Source of the DNA: Candidatus Nitrosopumilus limneticus
GTDB taxonomy: Archaea > Thermoproteota > Nitrososphaeria > Nitrososphaerales > Nitrosopumilaceae
Reading direction: 5' to 3'
Assembly: GCA_022117465.1 (NCBI GenBank)
Contig: JAHCGZ010000004.1
Coordinates: forward strand, 1-64,000
DNA: 64,000 bases
The notes under the pieces are model-generated. The model made no database searches. It was not told where the DNA came from and was given only the letters and a program-made list of their open reading frames with translations. This document shows, piece by piece, positions 2,307 to 51,743 of this stretch. The position numbers and the translations under genes were made by a program. Numbering within the stretch: position 1 is the stretch's first letter; every line of letters begins with the position of its first letter.

Positions 2307-3161
2307 ATGACTCAACTATTTCGTAGTCTAATTTTCGTACCCGGTAATAATCCAAGATTTATAGAAAAGGCAAAGAAGATTCAGGCTGATATTGTTTGTT
2401 TTGATTTAGAGGATTCTGTTCCAGATAACGAAAAAATTAGTGCCAGAAAATTGATTAAAAATGCACTAAAATCACGTTCAGAATATTCTTCTTCCATTTT
2501 TGTTAGAACTAATTCTCCATTATCTGGAAAAATTCCATCAGATCTAAAAGAGATTATTCAAAAAGGAATCGATGGAATAGTAGTTCCTAAAGTTGATAAT
2601 ATTATAGAATTAAAAAAGATACAAAAAATTCTTTCTAGTTTAGAAAAATCTAAAAAATTGAAACCAATCCAAATCATTCCATCTATTGAATCAGCTGAAG
2701 GTGTTGTTAACTCATATGCAATTGCATCGTTTGGAAAACGTGTTACTGCTATAGTCTTTGGAATTTTTGATTTACTAAACGATCTTGGTGTTGAATATAC
2801 AAAAAACTCTCCTGGTGGAAAATATTCTAGATATAAAATTCCTGTTGATGCAGCAGCTGCAGGAATATCTGCCATTGATGGTATCTGGCAGGATCTAAAT
2901 GATCCAAAAGGATTACAGGACGATTGTAATTTTGGAAAAAGTTTAGGATATGCAGGTAAAAGTGTAATACATCCAGATCAAATTACTGTTGTTCACAAAT
3001 CATTTTATCCAAATAAAACTGAAATTTTATGGGCAGAAAAAGTTTGTAAGGTGTATCTTGAATCAACAAAAAAAGGTAAAGGTGCTACAACAGTTGATGG
3101 AAAAATGATAGATGAAGTGCATTACAAACAAGCAAAAACACTTCTTGATATTATAAAATAA
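2307..3161 (+). CDS. HpcH/HpaI-CitE family lyase (citrate lyase beta / malyl-CoA lyase-like)
   Basis: 284 residues with CitE/Mcl landmarks: FRSLIFVPGNNPRFIEKA at the N-terminus, FDLEDSVP (acidic metal/substrate site), the VPKVDN strand, IIPSIESAEGVVNS with the metal-binding Glu, and GKSVIHPDQI near the C-terminus. The family cleaves or forms 3-hydroxy-acyl-CoA thioesters such as (S)-citramalyl-CoA or malyl-CoA in a TIM barrel with Mg2+. The true substrate cannot be told. It lies directly after the MDR dehydrogenase and before a TPR protein with very short gaps, so an operon is likely. Confidence 0.85.
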   Translation: MTQLFRSLIFVPGNNPRFIEKAKKIQADIVCFDLEDSVPDNEKISARKLIKNALKSRSEYSSSIFVRTNSPLSGKIPSDLKEIIQKGIDGIVVPKVDNIIELKKIQKILSSLEKSKKLKPIQIIPSIESAEGVVNSYAIASFGKRVTAIVFGIFDLLNDLGVEYTKNSPGGKYSRYKIPVDAAAAGISAIDGIWQDLNDPKGLQDDCNFGKSLGYAGKSVIHPDQITVVHKSFYPNKTEILWAEKVCKVYLESTKKGKGATTVDGKMIDEVHYKQAKTLLDIIK

Positions 3162-3870: not shown

Positions 3871-3927
3871 TTTCATTGTTAGTAATTATCTAAATCATTT
3901 TATACAAAGACTCTGTAGATTCTTTTG

Positions 3928-4518
3928 ATGTTTACAGGTATTGTTGAAGGAATTGGAATTGTTAATAAAATTTCTAAAATTACAAAAAACCGTAGTGCAA
4001 TTGAAATGACTATTGATTTAGGTAAACAAGTGAAGGGATTAAAAATTGGTCAAAGTGTTGCACTTAATGGTGTATGTCTTACTGCAACTAAATTGTCTAA
4101 ATCTAAATGTATTTTTGAAATGATTGAAGAAACTACAAAAAAAACTGATCTTGGTAATCTCAAAGTTGGAAGTGTGGTAAATATTGAAAGAAGTTTAAAG
4201 ACAGGAGGCAGATTAGAGGGTCATTTTGTTTTAGGTCACGTAGATGGGGTGGGAATTATAAAAAAAATTCTAAAAAAACCTAAAGAAGTTCAAATTTATT
4301 TTGAAGTTCCAAAAAATTTAACAAAATATGTTGTAAAGAAAGGATCTATTGCTATTGATGGAATTAGTTTAACTGTTGTTGACATCAAAAAAACATTAGT
4401 ATCTGTTTCATTAATTCCGCATACTATTGAAATTACAAATTTTCATACTAAGAGAGTAGGAGATAAGCTTAATATTGAAACCGATATCATCGGTAAGTAT
4501 ATTTTAAAACAAGCCTAA
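3928..4518 (+). CDS. ribE: riboflavin synthase, bacterial-type two-domain alpha chain
   Basis: 196 residues made of two similar lumazine-binding beta-barrels: MFTGIVEGIG opens domain 1 and LEGHFVLGHVDGVG starts the second half, with the usual GVCLTA and GISLTVV motifs in each. It dismutates two 6,7-dimethyl-8-ribityllumazine molecules into riboflavin. I place the start at ATG 3928, since the in-frame TTG at 3925 adds only one residue and the family begins MFTG. Euryarchaea and many crenarchaea use a different pentameric riboflavin synthase related to RibH, so the bacterial-type fold here is notable. First gene of the riboflavin operon. Confidence 0.93.
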   Translation: MFTGIVEGIGIVNKISKITKNRSAIEMTIDLGKQVKGLKIGQSVALNGVCLTATKLSKSKCIFEMIEETTKKTDLGNLKVGSVVNIERSLKTGGRLEGHFVLGHVDGVGIIKKILKKPKEVQIYFEVPKNLTKYVVKKGSIAIDGISLTVVDIKKTLVSVSLIPHTIEITNFHTKRVGDKLNIETDIIGKYILKQA

Positions 4519-4556
4519 TTATCTACTATTATAGTGGTAACTACCCATTTTTTAGT

Positions 4557-4568
4557 AAACTATATACC
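4557..4568 (+). promoter_or_regulatory. TATA-like box before ribB
   Basis: The sequence aaactatatacc lies about 25-30 nt before ATG 4591. That spacing is typical for leaderless archaeal transcripts and supports ATG 4591 as the ribB start over upstream in-frame codons. An internal promoter between ribE and ribB is therefore likely. Confidence 0.45.
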
Positions 4569-4590
4569 TAGATTGAAATTATTTTTTTAT

Positions 4591-5256
4591 ATGTCACTTG
4601 AAACTGGACTTGAATCCCTTAAACATGGAGAATTTGTGTTATTATTTGATTCAGCTGGACGTGAAAATGAAATAGATATGGTTGTTGCAGCAGAATTCAT
4701 TACTCCTGAACATGTTGCACGAATGCGTCAAAATGCTGGTGGCCTACTATGTATAGCACTTGAAAATAATTTTGCAAAATCTCTTGAATTACAATATATG
4801 CATGATATTTTATCTACCTCATCAGTATCAAATAAAGAAATGATAATGGGTTTAGCTCCTTATGGTGATTATCCTACATTTTCATTGTCTGTTAATCACT
4901 ATCAAACTTATACAGGAATTACTGATAGGGATAGAGCATTAACTATATTGGAAATGGCTAAAATCTATAAAGTTGAAAATAAGCAGAAAAAATTTGCCTC
5001 CTCATTTAAAACTCCTGGACATGTACCACTATTGATTGCATCAGAAGGATTATTAGCATCACGTCAGGGACATACTGAAATGTCTGTTTATTTAACTCAA
5101 ATTGCAGGATTAACTCCTGTAACAGCTATCTGTGAAATGATGGATGCTGAAACATATTCTGCATTATCAGTTGATAAAGCAGAAAAATTTGGAAAACAAA
5201 ATGGAATTCCATTAATTGATGGAAAAGAGCTTTTGGAATATGCTAAGGTGAACTAA
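4591..5256 (+). CDS. ribB: 3,4-dihydroxy-2-butanone 4-phosphate synthase
   Basis: 221 residues. The Mg2+/phosphate site is seen early as FDSAGRENEIDMVVAAEF, followed by the GGLLCIAL strand and the C-terminal HTEMSVYLTQIAGL and ICEMMD motifs. It turns ribulose 5-phosphate into the four-carbon unit used by lumazine synthase. An upstream in-frame extension to 4534 exists but reads MVTTHFLVNYIPRL, unlike the family, and overlaps the TATA box; I chose ATG 4591. No GTP cyclohydrolase II domain is fused. RibH starts 2 nt after the stop. Confidence 0.93.
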   Translation: MSLETGLESLKHGEFVLLFDSAGRENEIDMVVAAEFITPEHVARMRQNAGGLLCIALENNFAKSLELQYMHDILSTSSVSNKEMIMGLAPYGDYPTFSLSVNHYQTYTGITDRDRALTILEMAKIYKVENKQKKFASSFKTPGHVPLLIASEGLLASRQGHTEMSVYLTQIAGLTPVTAICEMMDAETYSALSVDKAEKFGKQNGIPLIDGKELLEYAKVN

Positions 5257-5258
5257 TT

Positions 5259-5672
5259 TTGAATATCGCTATTGTAGTTTCAGAATTTAATGAGGAGATA
5301 ACATCCCGTATGTTGGAAGTTGCTAAAGAAAAAGCTAATTCCATGCAATTAACAATTTCTCATATATGTATGGTTCCTGGAGCCTATGACATGCCTATAC
5401 TTGTAGATCAATTACTCCAAAATCAAAATATTGATGGAGTTGCAACTTTGGGTGCAATAATTAAAGGTCAAACTAAACATGATGAAGTAATATCTCACGC
5501 AACTGCTAGATCATTAACTGATTTATCATTAAAATATCAAAAACCTGTATCCTTAGGAATATCTGGTCCTGGAATGCAGGAAAGACACGCTTATGCTAGA
5601 ATTAGACCTGTTGCAGAAAGAGCAATTGAAGCACTTGTTAAAATTTCTAAAGAATTGGAAAAAATTAAGTAA
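5259..5672 (+). CDS. ribH: 6,7-dimethyl-8-ribityllumazine synthase, archaeal type
   Basis: 137 residues with the lumazine synthase core: VVSEFNEEITSRML, VPGAYDMPI, LGAIIKGQTKHDEVI (catalytic His) and SLGISGPGMQERHAYARI. The last block replaces the bacterial GVLT...QA motif and resembles the M. jannaschii enzyme. It condenses 5-amino-6-ribitylaminouracil with dihydroxybutanone phosphate. The start codon is TTG at 5259. The stop overlaps the next start as TAATG, so translation of the two is probably coupled. Confidence 0.93.
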   Translation: MNIAIVVSEFNEEITSRMLEVAKEKANSMQLTISHICMVPGAYDMPILVDQLLQNQNIDGVATLGAIIKGQTKHDEVISHATARSLTDLSLKYQKPVSLGISGPGMQERHAYARIRPVAERAIEALVKISKELEKIK

Positions 5673-6418
5673 TGATCCAACTTAGCATTTTAAAAATTAC
5701 TGAATATGGGCCTTGGACCTTAACTTTAGGTAGTGATCGAGAACATGAATTACAAATGCTTCAGGCATCATTATACAAACAAGTTCAACAATTATTTTCA
5801 GCAAAAAATTGTTTAGTATTTTTAAATAGATCTGATGAATTTTTTGTTGTATCAAACGGTCTTACTTTAGAAGATCATGTGGAAATTCAAAAATCACTCA
5901 AAAAATTATTTAAAATTACTTTAACTATTTCTATTGGTTATGGAAATACTCCGTTTGAAGCTAATCTAAAGGCATATGATGGTAAACAAAATAATGTAAT
6001 ACTAAATGAGGAACATGATATTTTTGGATTCATTGAAAATAAATTTGAATTTAATGTTTCTATAATGCATTTAGATGTTGACAATTTAGAATCAAAAAGA
6101 AATAATAATTCACCATATGAAATTTCATTACAAATTTTTGAACTATATTCTAAAATTGGAAGATATTTTATTGAAAAAAATTCTCTTACATTTTTTATGG
6201 GCGGTGATAATTACATGGTCGTTGCAAGTGATGATGCAAAAAATTCAGTTCAAAATTTTATAAATATAATTAAAAATGATCATAATATTTCTTTGAATTG
6301 TGGAATTGGAAATGCAAAAACTAGTAGAGATGCAGTCAAATTAGCCACAAAATCACTTGATACCATACGTGAAATTAGAGATTCAGGAAAACAAAAACCT
6401 GACGTTTATGAATTATGA
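5672..6418 (+). CDS. arfA: GTP cyclohydrolase III (FAPy-forming)
   Basis: 248 residues, the length of archaeal GCH III (GTP cyclohydrolase IIa). It consists of two cyclase/GGDEF-like halves: ISIGYGNTPFEANLKAY ends the first, and HLDVDNLES plus FMGGDNYMVVAS mark metal and nucleotide binding in the second, with NCGIGNAKTSRDAVKLA near the end. It opens the imidazole ring of GTP to the formamidopyrimidine nucleotide, the first step to riboflavin and F420 in archaea. It overlaps both neighbours (TAATG with ribH, ATGA with the amidohydrolase), placing it firmly in the riboflavin operon. Confidence 0.92.
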   Translation: MIQLSILKITEYGPWTLTLGSDREHELQMLQASLYKQVQQLFSAKNCLVFLNRSDEFFVVSNGLTLEDHVEIQKSLKKLFKITLTISIGYGNTPFEANLKAYDGKQNNVILNEEHDIFGFIENKFEFNVSIMHLDVDNLESKRNNNSPYEISLQIFELYSKIGRYFIEKNSLTFFMGGDNYMVVASDDAKNSVQNFINIIKNDHNISLNCGIGNAKTSRDAVKLATKSLDTIREIRDSGKQKPDVYEL

Positions 6419-7608
6419 TGTTATTAAAAAATATTAGTACATTATTGGGTGAAGAATTAAATTTTGTTTCAAATATTGATATTCAAATTAAAGACGATAA
6501 ATTTCAAAAAATTCATACCAATATCAAGTCTGATTCAAAAAAGGATACTATTGATTGTGAGGGGTTATTATTAATTCCTGGATTTATAAATTCACATACC
6601 CATATTGCTGATTCAATTGGAAAAGATATTACATTAAACAATACAGTTAACCAAAAAATTCATCCTATGTTTGGTATTAAATCTAAAATATTAAAAAATA
6701 CATCTAATGAGATTCTTTCCACATTTATGAAAAATACTTGTCAATCTATGATTCGAAAAGGTATCACTACTTTTGTTGATTTTAGAGAAGGGGGCTTAGA
6801 TGGTGCAGTTTTACTCAAAAAAGTTTCTAATGATGTTGCTATTCGTTCAATTATTTTGGGAAGATTGGATTATCACCAAACTTCCTTTGAAATTAAAAAA
6901 AATAAACCTCTTCCAAAAGAAAAACTCCTTGAACTTCCTTCTTTAGTCAAAGTATGTGATGGAATTGGAATTAGTGGTGCAAATGAGCATAGTAACTCAG
7001 TATTAACGTCGTATTCTAAAACAAAAAAACTAAGAGCAATTCATTCATCTGAAACTCAAGAGAGTGTACGAAAATCTAAACAAATTACAGGTAAATCTGA
7101 AACACTTAGAGCATTATCTCTAAAGCCTGATTTTTTGATTCACATGACCCATGCATCGAAAAGTGATTTAGAAGCAGCATCTAAAAAAACTAGAGGTATT
7201 GTTATTTGTCCTAGAGCAAATTCATCACTATCAGAAGGTATACCCGATATTGAAAAAATGAGAAATGCTGGATGTCTCCTTGCATTAGGCACTGATAATG
7301 TAATGATTAATTCTCCTGATATGTTTCGTGAAATGGATTTTCTTTGGAAGGTAACGATGGGAATTAAAAAAAAAAGAATTGATCCAAAAGATATTCTTAA
7401 GATGGCAACAATTAATGCTGGAAAAATTTTAAAAAAAGATATTGGAATTATTCAAACAAAAAAAATAGCTGATTGCATATTTTTTGATAAGCATGCATTA
7501 GATTTAGAACCAATGCATAATCCATATGCTTCAATTGTACATAGAGCATCTGAATCCGCAATTAAAGCAGTGATGATTGGAGGAAAAATTGTACATGGAA
7601 AAATCTAA
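6415..7608 (+). CDS. amidohydrolase-superfamily deaminase; candidate riboflavin-pathway deaminase
   Basis: 397 residues. The metal-dependent deaminase branch of the amidohydrolase superfamily is seen in order: SHTHIAD (HxH), IHSSETQES (His plus catalytic Glu), IHMTHASKSDLEA (His), CPRANSSLSEGIP and LGTDNVMINSPDMF (metal-binding Asp). Relatives deaminate guanine, S-adenosylhomocysteine, 5'-deoxyadenosine or cytosine. It overlaps GTP cyclohydrolase III (ATGA) and is followed by the ArfC-type reductase. The archaeal pathway needs a pyrimidine deaminase, and no bacterial-type RibD deaminase domain occurs in this operon, so this gene is a natural candidate. The family call is strong; the substrate is inference. 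A 5'-deoxyadenosine/SAH deaminase is the main alternative. Confidence 0.85.
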   Translation: MMLLKNISTLLGEELNFVSNIDIQIKDDKFQKIHTNIKSDSKKDTIDCEGLLLIPGFINSHTHIADSIGKDITLNNTVNQKIHPMFGIKSKILKNTSNEILSTFMKNTCQSMIRKGITTFVDFREGGLDGAVLLKKVSNDVAIRSIILGRLDYHQTSFEIKKNKPLPKEKLLELPSLVKVCDGIGISGANEHSNSVLTSYSKTKKLRAIHSSETQESVRKSKQITGKSETLRALSLKPDFLIHMTHASKSDLEAASKKTRGIVICPRANSSLSEGIPDIEKMRNAGCLLALGTDNVMINSPDMFREMDFLWKVTMGIKKKRIDPKDILKMATINAGKILKKDIGIIQTKKIADCIFFDKHALDLEPMHNPYASIVHRASESAIKAVMIGGKIVHGKI

Positions 7609-7609
7609 C

Positions 7610-8251
7610 ATGCACATAATTTTGAGTGCAGCAATCTCAATTGATGGAAAAATAGCTACAAGAACAAATGATTCAAAATTATCTTCTAAAGAAGATATTA
7701 TTAGATTGCATAAATTAAGATCTAAAATAGATGCAATTCTTATTGGAAAAAATACTTTAGTCCATGATGATCCTCTATTAACAGTACGTTATGCTAAAGG
7801 AAAAAACCCAATAAGAATTGTTTTAGATTCTAAAGGTACAATTTCAATAAATTCTAGAATTATTAAAACAAGTAATCAAATCCCAACTATAATAGCCGTT
7901 TCAAAAAAAATTAGTAAATTAAATTTATTAAAATTAAAAAAAATGCCTGTAGAAATAATTATTGCTGGAGAAAATTCAGTAAATTTAAAATTATTGCTCA
8001 AAAAGCTTGCTGCTAAAAAAATTCAAACTATTTTAGTTGAAGGTGGAGGTACTGTAAATTGGGAATTTATAAAAAATAATCTTTTTAACGAATTAATAAT
8101 TACTTTATCTCCTTACATAATTGGAGGAAAAGATGCTATCTCATTTGTTGAAGGAAAGGGATTTAGTAAAATTTCAAATTCACCTAATTTAAAATTAAAA
8201 TCAATTCAGAGGCTCAAAAATTACCTTGTAGTTAATTACATTAAAGTGTAA
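7610..8251 (+). CDS. arfC: 2,5-diamino-6-ribosylamino-pyrimidinone phosphate reductase (RibD reductase-like)
   Basis: About 213 residues matching the stand-alone archaeal RibD-reductase/DHFR-like fold: HIILSAAISIDGKIAT at the start, IDAILIGKNTLVHDDPLLTVR, NPIRIVLDSKGTI, and ILVEGGGTVNWEFI in the NADPH site. It reduces the ribosyl side chain to ribityl. ATG 7610 directly follows the amidohydrolase stop; an in-frame ATG at 7595 adds five residues and cannot be excluded. No deaminase domain is fused, unlike bacterial RibD. Last gene of the riboflavin operon. Confidence 0.88.
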   Translation: MHIILSAAISIDGKIATRTNDSKLSSKEDIIRLHKLRSKIDAILIGKNTLVHDDPLLTVRYAKGKNPIRIVLDSKGTISINSRIIKTSNQIPTIIAVSKKISKLNLLKLKKMPVEIIIAGENSVNLKLLLKKLAAKKIQTILVEGGGTVNWEFIKNNLFNELIITLSPYIIGGKDAISFVEGKGFSKISNSPNLKLKSIQRLKNYLVVNYIKV

Positions 8252-51020: not shown

Positions 51021-51743
51021 CTATAAACTATCTTCAGTAAGGTAAGTTTGACACTTTTTTGACAAGTTTTGTACAATTTCATTCAAAATCTTAATTCCAT
51101 CTTTTTTTGTTGCTTTTGTTGGATCACCCCAAATTCCATTTTTTGTAGCTTTTGGAAATGATTTATTGGCTAATTTTCCAATTTTAATTATTTCTTGTTT
51201 TGTCATTTTATCTGTAATCAAACCTTTTTTTGCTAGTTTCATTTTAACATTTTTTGAAATTGCTAACATTAGAGATGTTTCTACAAACCCTGCATGATCA
51301 AAATCTTTATCCATAAAATGCCAATAGGATAATGAAAATACTTTAACTTTATTTTTTAATTTTTTTCTAATTTTCAAATCAATATCTTTAATTGATTTTA
51401 AATTTCCATGATGACCATTAATAATAAAAATTGTTTTAATATTATTTTCTAGTAATGATGTGCATAAATCTATTAGGATTGCACGTAATGTAGATTCTTT
51501 AATACTTAAATTGAAAAATGGTGCATGTTCAAATGAATTTCCATATGTTATGGTTGGAAGAAGAAGATAGTCATTTTTATCAGATAGTTTTTTTGCTACT
51601 TTTGATACAATATCTGAATCAGTTGAAATTGGTAAGTGTGGACCATGTTGTTCAATTGAACCAATAGGAATAATCGCAATTTTATTCTTATTTTTAAGCA
51701 AATTTCTTAGTATTGGATCGAATTGTGTTTTAATATCTGTCAT
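51021..51743 (-). CDS. arfB: creatininase-family amidohydrolase, ArfB candidate (FAPy deformylase)
   Basis: 240 residues of the creatininase family: IIPIGSIEQHGPHLPISTDS (metal site), LLLPTITYGNSFEHAPFFNL, IFIINGHHGNLKSIKD and DFDHAGFVETSLMLAI. In archaea a member, ArfB, deformylates the product of GTP cyclohydrolase III. The first and later steps of that pathway sit at 3.9-8.3 kb in this window, which supports the assignment; other creatininase-like amidases are possible. Next gene (purU) ends 5 nt upstream on the same strand. Confidence 0.8.
   Translation of the reverse strand: MTDIKTQFDPILRNLLKNKNKIAIIPIGSIEQHGPHLPISTDSDIVSKVAKKLSDKNDYLLLPTITYGNSFEHAPFFNLSIKESTLRAILIDLCTSLLENNIKTIFIINGHHGNLKSIKDIDLKIRKKLKNKVKVFSLSYWHFMDKDFDHAGFVETSLMLAISKNVKMKLAKKGLITDKMTKQEIIKIGKLANKSFPKATKNGIWGDPTKATKKDGIKILNEIVQNLSKKCQTYLTEDSL

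Follow-up and report, generated by a model that had tools for sequence, protein, structure and literature searches.

An amidohydrolase-superfamily protein as the proposed pyrimidine deaminase of archaeal riboflavin and F420 biosynthesis

The riboflavin operon and its host genome

The window analysed here is a stretch of 64,000 nucleotides from Candidatus Nitrosopumilus limneticus (contig JAHCGZ010000004.1, positions 1 to 64,000). It carries a riboflavin operon with the gene order ribE-ribB-ribH-arfA-AHS-arfC (Table 1), where AHS is shorthand for the amidohydrolase-superfamily protein of this operon and its family relatives. An earlier note on this DNA had described the AHS reading frame and its neighbours. 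The frame is present as described, as is the ATGA through which it overlaps the GTP cyclohydrolase III gene, and ribE, ribB, ribH, arfA and arfC were each identified by Pfam or NCBIfam profiles. The frame encodes 397 amino acids from position 6415 or 396 from 6418, and the true start is probably 6418 because relatives begin at the second methionine. The arfC gene was said to follow at once, and indeed, since the AHS stop codon occupies 7606-7608 and the likely arfC start is 7595 or 7610 (in-frame ATGs at both), the two genes slightly overlap or abut. The arfB gene that the note placed at 51.0 kb is a creatininase-family gene, unlinked to the operon.

Table 1. Genes and sequence motifs in the window
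Feature	Position	Strand	Evidence or remark
HpcH/CitE-like lyase gene	2307-3161		
ribE, bacterial-type riboflavin synthase	3925-4518	+	TIGR00187, PF00677
ribB	4534-5256	+	PF00926, TIGR00506
ribH, lumazine synthase	5259-5672	+	PF00885, TIGR00114
arfA, GTP cyclohydrolase III (GCH_III)	5672-6418	+	PF05165, 170 bits
AHS, proposed 2,5-diamino-6-ribitylamino-4(3H)-pyrimidinone 5'-phosphate deaminase	6415-7608	+	NF005552, PF01979, AF2 model, closest folds
HxH metal motif, H61-T-H63	6595-6603	+	invariant in 45 AHS members
D66	6610-6612	+	invariant, AHS-specific
HxxE motif, H210-E213, by analogy with the superfamily a putative metal ligand and proton shuttle (Glu)	7042-7053	+	invariant
D294-N295, putative metal-ligand Asp and AHS-specific Asn	7294-7299	+	alignment
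arfC (rib_reduct_arch), 2,5-diamino-6-ribosylamino-pyrimidinone 5'-phosphate reductase	7577-8251	+	TIGR01508, 204 bits, above cut-off
arfB-type formamide hydrolase, creatininase family, unlinked	51021-51743	-	PF02633, 171 bits

The host genome (1.19 Mb, 95% complete) encodes three further amidohydrolases, a urease alpha subunit, an adenine deaminase and a protein of the hydantoinase/dihydroorotase type. The description of AHS as the only deaminase-like protein therefore holds in a narrower form: it is the sole member of the SAH/cytosine/guanine-deaminase branch in the genome, but not its only amidohydrolase. A genome-wide search for a separate CDA-type RibD found none, in agreement with the earlier note; the RibD model matches ArfC alone. 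The sole CDA-fold protein of the genome, encoded elsewhere, is ComEB/dCMP-deaminase-like; it was considered as the pathway deaminase and rejected, being of the dCMP-deaminase type and not RibD.

Two other features of the operon can be mentioned. Most of the Nitrososphaerales examined have a gene for an HpcH/CitE-like lyase upstream of ribE, and in some cases a TPR gene separates the two. Moreover, Nitrososphaerales have the bacterial-type RibE together with one lumazine-synthase-family protein, whereas most other RibH-positive Thermoproteota have two proteins of this family, consistent with an archaeal RibC.

Family assignment, conserved residues and predicted structure

The window protein matches PF01979 in a Pfam profile search and scores 324.8 bits against NF005552/PRK07213 "chlorohydrolase" (equivalog cut-off 294), covering positions 1-377 of 382. 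It thus belongs to this family by score; the name does not fit, and a renaming is due. The cut-off is missed by AHS members of the Thermoproteales, Sulfolobales and haloarchaeal types, and NF005552 is the best family of every member scanned, including those from Asgard archaea and haloarchaea. The guanine and 8-oxoguanine deaminase models TIGR02967 and NF006055 gave 61 and 90 bits, far below their cut-offs of 375 and 532. The CDA domain PF00383, the fold that carries the HAE...PCxxC zinc motif in CDA-type RibD/Rib2, had no match in the protein among the Pfam profiles.

The motifs listed in the earlier note, and with them the deaminase branch of the superfamily, are all found: H61xH63, H210xxE213, H243 and D294-N295. 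Motifs, model and PDB matches agree on the HxH, HxxE, H and D arrangement in a (beta/alpha)8 barrel. Among 45 aligned members, the superfamily metal and catalytic residues H61, H63, H210, E213, H243 and D294 are invariant. So are D66, K89, E125 and N295; 42 of the 45 also retain R267 and R377. Six adenosine-type paralogues have M/G/Q at position 66, E/Q/K at 89, F/S/L/Y at 125 and G at 295, and thus differ at all of these AHS-specific positions apart from one lysine; residues 294-295 read DN in all 45 AHS members and DG in all six paralogues. An AlphaFold2 model built with 48 natural sequences has a pLDDT of 93.8, and its Foldseek matches comprise adenosine-type deaminases, TrzN, the isocytosine deaminase Vcz (TMq 0.83-0.87), guanine deaminase and MTA/SAH deaminase.

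The nearest PDB relatives, by E-value as well as fold, are SAH/MTA/5'-deoxyadenosine deaminases (TM0936, 4gbd, DadD-like). This could indicate that AHS is itself an adenosine-type deaminase, acting on SAH, MTA or 5'-deoxyadenosine and lying in the operon by happenstance, which the earlier note had kept as its alternative. We consider this very improbable. The window protein scores 58, 102 and 110 bits against the corresponding equivalogs NF012037, NF005557 and NF006549 (cut-offs 779, 522 and 540), and over all the models of this kind its scores span only 58-128 bits against cut-offs of 522-779. The known enzymes differ from AHS at D66, K89, E125, R267, N295 and R377; position 89 in particular is glutamate in four of the six paralogues and lysine in all 45 AHS members. 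In the tree, adenosine-type paralogues form a separate clade (support 100/100), and the lineages that have them carry AHS in addition. The host genome already encodes an SAH hydrolase. Finally, this alternative leaves unexplained the clustering with rib and cof genes and the co-occurrence with RibH described below.

Gene context in riboflavin and F420 clusters

The order ribB-ribH-arfA-AHS-arfC is kept in all 20 Nitrososphaerales examined, and in each of them AHS and arfA share a strand and are no more than 250 bp apart; the homologue thus stays in the riboflavin cluster, a check proposed in the earlier note, and it does so beyond this order. In other Thermoproteota, divergent AHS genes are found beside arfC or after ribB-ribH-arfA (L059-L067, L071-L074), or beside ribH or ribB, and the Asgard loci L100 and L102 likewise have AHS beside rib/arf genes. 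Among the matches listed, 80 public genome contigs have relatives, and rib genes occur near AHS in 78 of these, Asgard archaea included. Sulfolobales-like genomes and some others have AHS at a distance from their rib genes, and a profile scan of viral contigs found no AHS relatives. The conservation of clustering across phyla rules out chance clustering.

The two contigs of the 80 without rib genes are FO/F420 clusters, with the orders AHS-cofG-cofH (L077) and cofH-AHS-HAD (L121). Over all loci searched, AHS occurs with cofG and/or cofH in eight (L056, L057, L058, L060, L061, L064, L077 and L121). The compound 5-amino-6-(D-ribitylamino)uracil is the substrate of RibH. It is also the compound on which CofH acts, according to the NCBIfam name of TIGR03551. 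Since AHS travels with either riboflavin or F420 genes, it must act on the common trunk before 5-amino-6-ribitylaminouracil, and this trunk, from GTP to 5-amino-6-ribitylaminouracil, is the only explanation that covers both gene contexts. The F420 context, which the earlier note had not foreseen, strengthens the deaminase assignment. Gene context alone would suit a deamination or a phosphatase step equally, and the predicted fold argues against a phosphatase.

In L121, from a Methanomethylicia MAG, the HAD-type hydrolase gene (L121:3442-4050) overlaps AHS and may encode the missing ARPP phosphatase (EC 3.1.3.104).

Co-occurrence with trunk enzymes in Thermoproteota

The phylum sample comprised 299 genomes of Thermoproteota, each at least 85% complete; a lumazine-synthase-family protein is encoded in 126 of them. 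NF005552 alone misses divergent AHS proteins; for example, Sulfolobales-like genomes seemed negative with it (1e-13 to 1e-18), and the broader profile A2 gives about 290-330 bits. AHS, ArfC and RibH occur together in each of the 59 Nitrososphaerales. Among the 67 other RibH-positive genomes, AHS was detected at 215 bits or more with A2 in 63, G080 among them; in G070, a protein scoring 165 bits falls within the AHS family in the tree. Outside Nitrososphaerales, AHS is therefore present in 63 of 63 genomes with both RibH and ArfC (62 at 215 bits or more, G070 by tree), which makes 122 of 122 in the sample, one by tree only; as the genomes are related, these are not independent events, and the pattern covers many family-level groups. 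The RibH-positive genomes without AHS (G060, G154 and G172) also lack ArfC and RibD.

Conversely, AHS was found in none of 72 RibH-negative genomes tested: none reached 200 bits, and the top paralogue scored 184. Three AHS-positive, RibH-negative genomes (G018, G102 and G096), picked for having AHS and left out of the 72, have it adjoining arfC, with cofGH in the same cluster in G018 and G102. Both linkage to and co-occurrence with trunk genes, as expected for the class of archaeal riboflavin/F420 pyrimidine deaminases, were thus found.

A creatininase-type ArfB is present in 56 of 57 AHS-positive genomes, and its gene lies inside the AHS cluster in G175 and G211 and next to it in G019. This bears on the idea that AHS performs another hydrolytic step of the trunk, for example deformylation in place of ArfB, as amidohydrolases are able to cleave amides and AHS adjoins arfA, whose product requires deformylation. 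Given the near-constant presence of ArfB, sometimes beside AHS itself, such a role appears highly unlikely; sequence and structure group AHS with deaminases acting on C-NH2, and the deaminase slot would then be vacant in every genome.

Some individual genomes deserve mention. G080 (99% complete) has AHS and RibH with ArfC undetected, a possible ArfC replacement. G118 (99% complete) has AHS, ArfC and RibH with creatininase-type ArfB undetected, a possible ArfB replacement. The AHS relative of G070 (L192:1363-2550) has a long branch, carries SPASN/GGDN instead of CPRxN/GTDN, lies away from rib genes and is the sole deaminase candidate in this RibH- and ArfC-positive genome. In addition, ArfC-like reductases occur in RibH-negative genomes with no rib, cof or AHS neighbours (L161:5988-6650 and L170:2716-3396); the one in L170 adjoins what may be, as read from its sequence, an ECF transporter S component.

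Replacement by a RibA-RibD fusion

By the RibD profile, the RibD deaminase domain is absent from 79 genomes, most of them AHS-positive. In the genomes examined, this profile matches the reductase half only (from about position 118-147), apart from hits of at most 24 bits and with the exception of G278, where it matches positions 1 to 341. G278 encodes a 583-amino-acid fusion of GTP cyclohydrolase II, CDA deaminase and reductase (RibA-RibD-RibD_C), divergently oriented from cofG-cofH (L160:4294-8551), and it has no AHS, RibH or creatininase-type ArfB. It apparently possesses an F420-only trunk made of bacterial-type enzymes. Of all single arguments for AHS as the source of the deaminase, this natural replacement is the strongest. 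Genomes with ArfC only were considered as a possible contradiction of the AHS link and rejected as such: those tested have no RibH, and G278 has the RibA-RibD fusion.

Proposed reaction

Context, co-occurrence and the absence of RibD support the proposal of the earlier note that AHS is the archaeal pyrimidine deaminase, with a presumed substrate, and we put at roughly 90% the probability that it is the deaminase of the archaeal riboflavin/F420 trunk. In the proposed scheme, ArfA would open GTP, ArfB would deformylate the product and ArfC would reduce the ribosyl side chain. AHS would then hydrolyse the 2-amino group of 2,5-diamino-6-ribitylamino-4(3H)-pyrimidinone 5'-phosphate, with ammonia and 5-amino-6-ribitylaminouracil 5'-phosphate as products. 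Its mechanism would be that of guanine and isocytosine deaminases, with H61, H63, H210 and D294 holding the metal, the water activated by metal and E213, and H243 assisting. From their conservation pattern, K89, R267 and R377 may bind the phosphoribityl arm, and E125, D66 and N295 the 5-amino-pyrimidinone.

The main uncertainty concerns the exact form of the substrate and the order of the steps. The same deaminase might act at another point, either before ArfC on the ribosylamino compound, as in bacteria, or on the ribityl compound after loss of its phosphate; arfA-AHS-arfC is a frequent gene order, and the HAD hydrolase gene overlapping AHS in L121 would also suit this view. It seems rather unlikely, as reported archaeal biochemistry puts reduction before deamination (PMC3403918; the title of Graupner 2002 as it appears in PMC8305020), and the conserved K89, R267 and R377 would suit a phosphorylated substrate. 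Deamination of the phosphorylated ribityl compound is the reaction that we propose.

It is likely that most archaea making riboflavin or F420 go from the ArfC product to 5-amino-6-ribitylaminouracil with a deaminase of the amidohydrolase fold, unrelated to RibD/Rib2, with the gene lying in riboflavin or F420 (FO) clusters according to the cofactor made, and that CDA-type RibD occurs only where bacterial genes were acquired.

Relation to known systems and previous predictions

The RibD deaminase domain and fungal Rib2 belong to the CDA superfamily; the step is the same as that proposed here, whereas the fold and metal motif of AHS are unrelated to theirs. AHS is accordingly proposed as a non-orthologous replacement of the RibD/Rib2 of bacteria, fungi and plants. 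Guanine deaminase and isocytosine/8-oxoguanine deaminase (Vcz, 7ww2) share the superfamily fold and motif with AHS, and amidohydrolases that deaminate isocytosine have been described (PMC6186785). They remove the 2-amino group of a 2-amino-4-oxopyrimidine ring (PMC6186785), which is the chemistry proposed for AHS, but they are only 14-18% identical to it in structural alignment, their substrates are free bases and AHS falls outside their equivalog models.

NF005552 was detected in the genomes of M. jannaschii and H. volcanii, which served as controls. MJ0699 is presumably a COG0402 amidohydrolase, and AHS is likely orthologous to MJ0699/HVO_2483. In Table 6 of PMC8305020, HVO_2483 (34% identical to MJ0699) is given as "prediction", citing Rodionova et al. 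2017, and HVO_2483/MJ0699 stands after arfC and before the gap for the phosphatase (EC 3.1.3.104), a position that corresponds to the deaminase slot. The deaminase idea is thus probably not new for the euryarchaeal genes. In the literature searched, no assay was found of an archaeal gene for the deaminase step, which had long lacked an assigned gene, and at least one recent paper still writes "RibD" at this step in archaea (PMC9478397).

To the MJ0699/HVO_2483 prediction as listed in PMC8305020, the present analysis adds the Nitrososphaerales operon, the F420 clusters, a near-exact co-occurrence throughout the phylum, the RibA-RibD replacement and the AHS-specific residues. The outcome is one testable protein per genome with its key residues; the F420 clusters, as an independent context, fix the step. 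If correct, the assignment would close an annotation gap in many lineages, ammonia-oxidising archaea among them, put right the NF005552 label "chlorohydrolase" and provide a clean case of a core cofactor pathway in which one enzyme has been replaced by a non-orthologous one.

In haloarchaea, including Halobacterium salinarum NRC-1, AHS relatives were found on plasmids and outside rib clusters (L158:5875-6894 on pNRC200, L156, L157 and L159), so plasmids of this group may carry a vitamin gene that is possibly essential.
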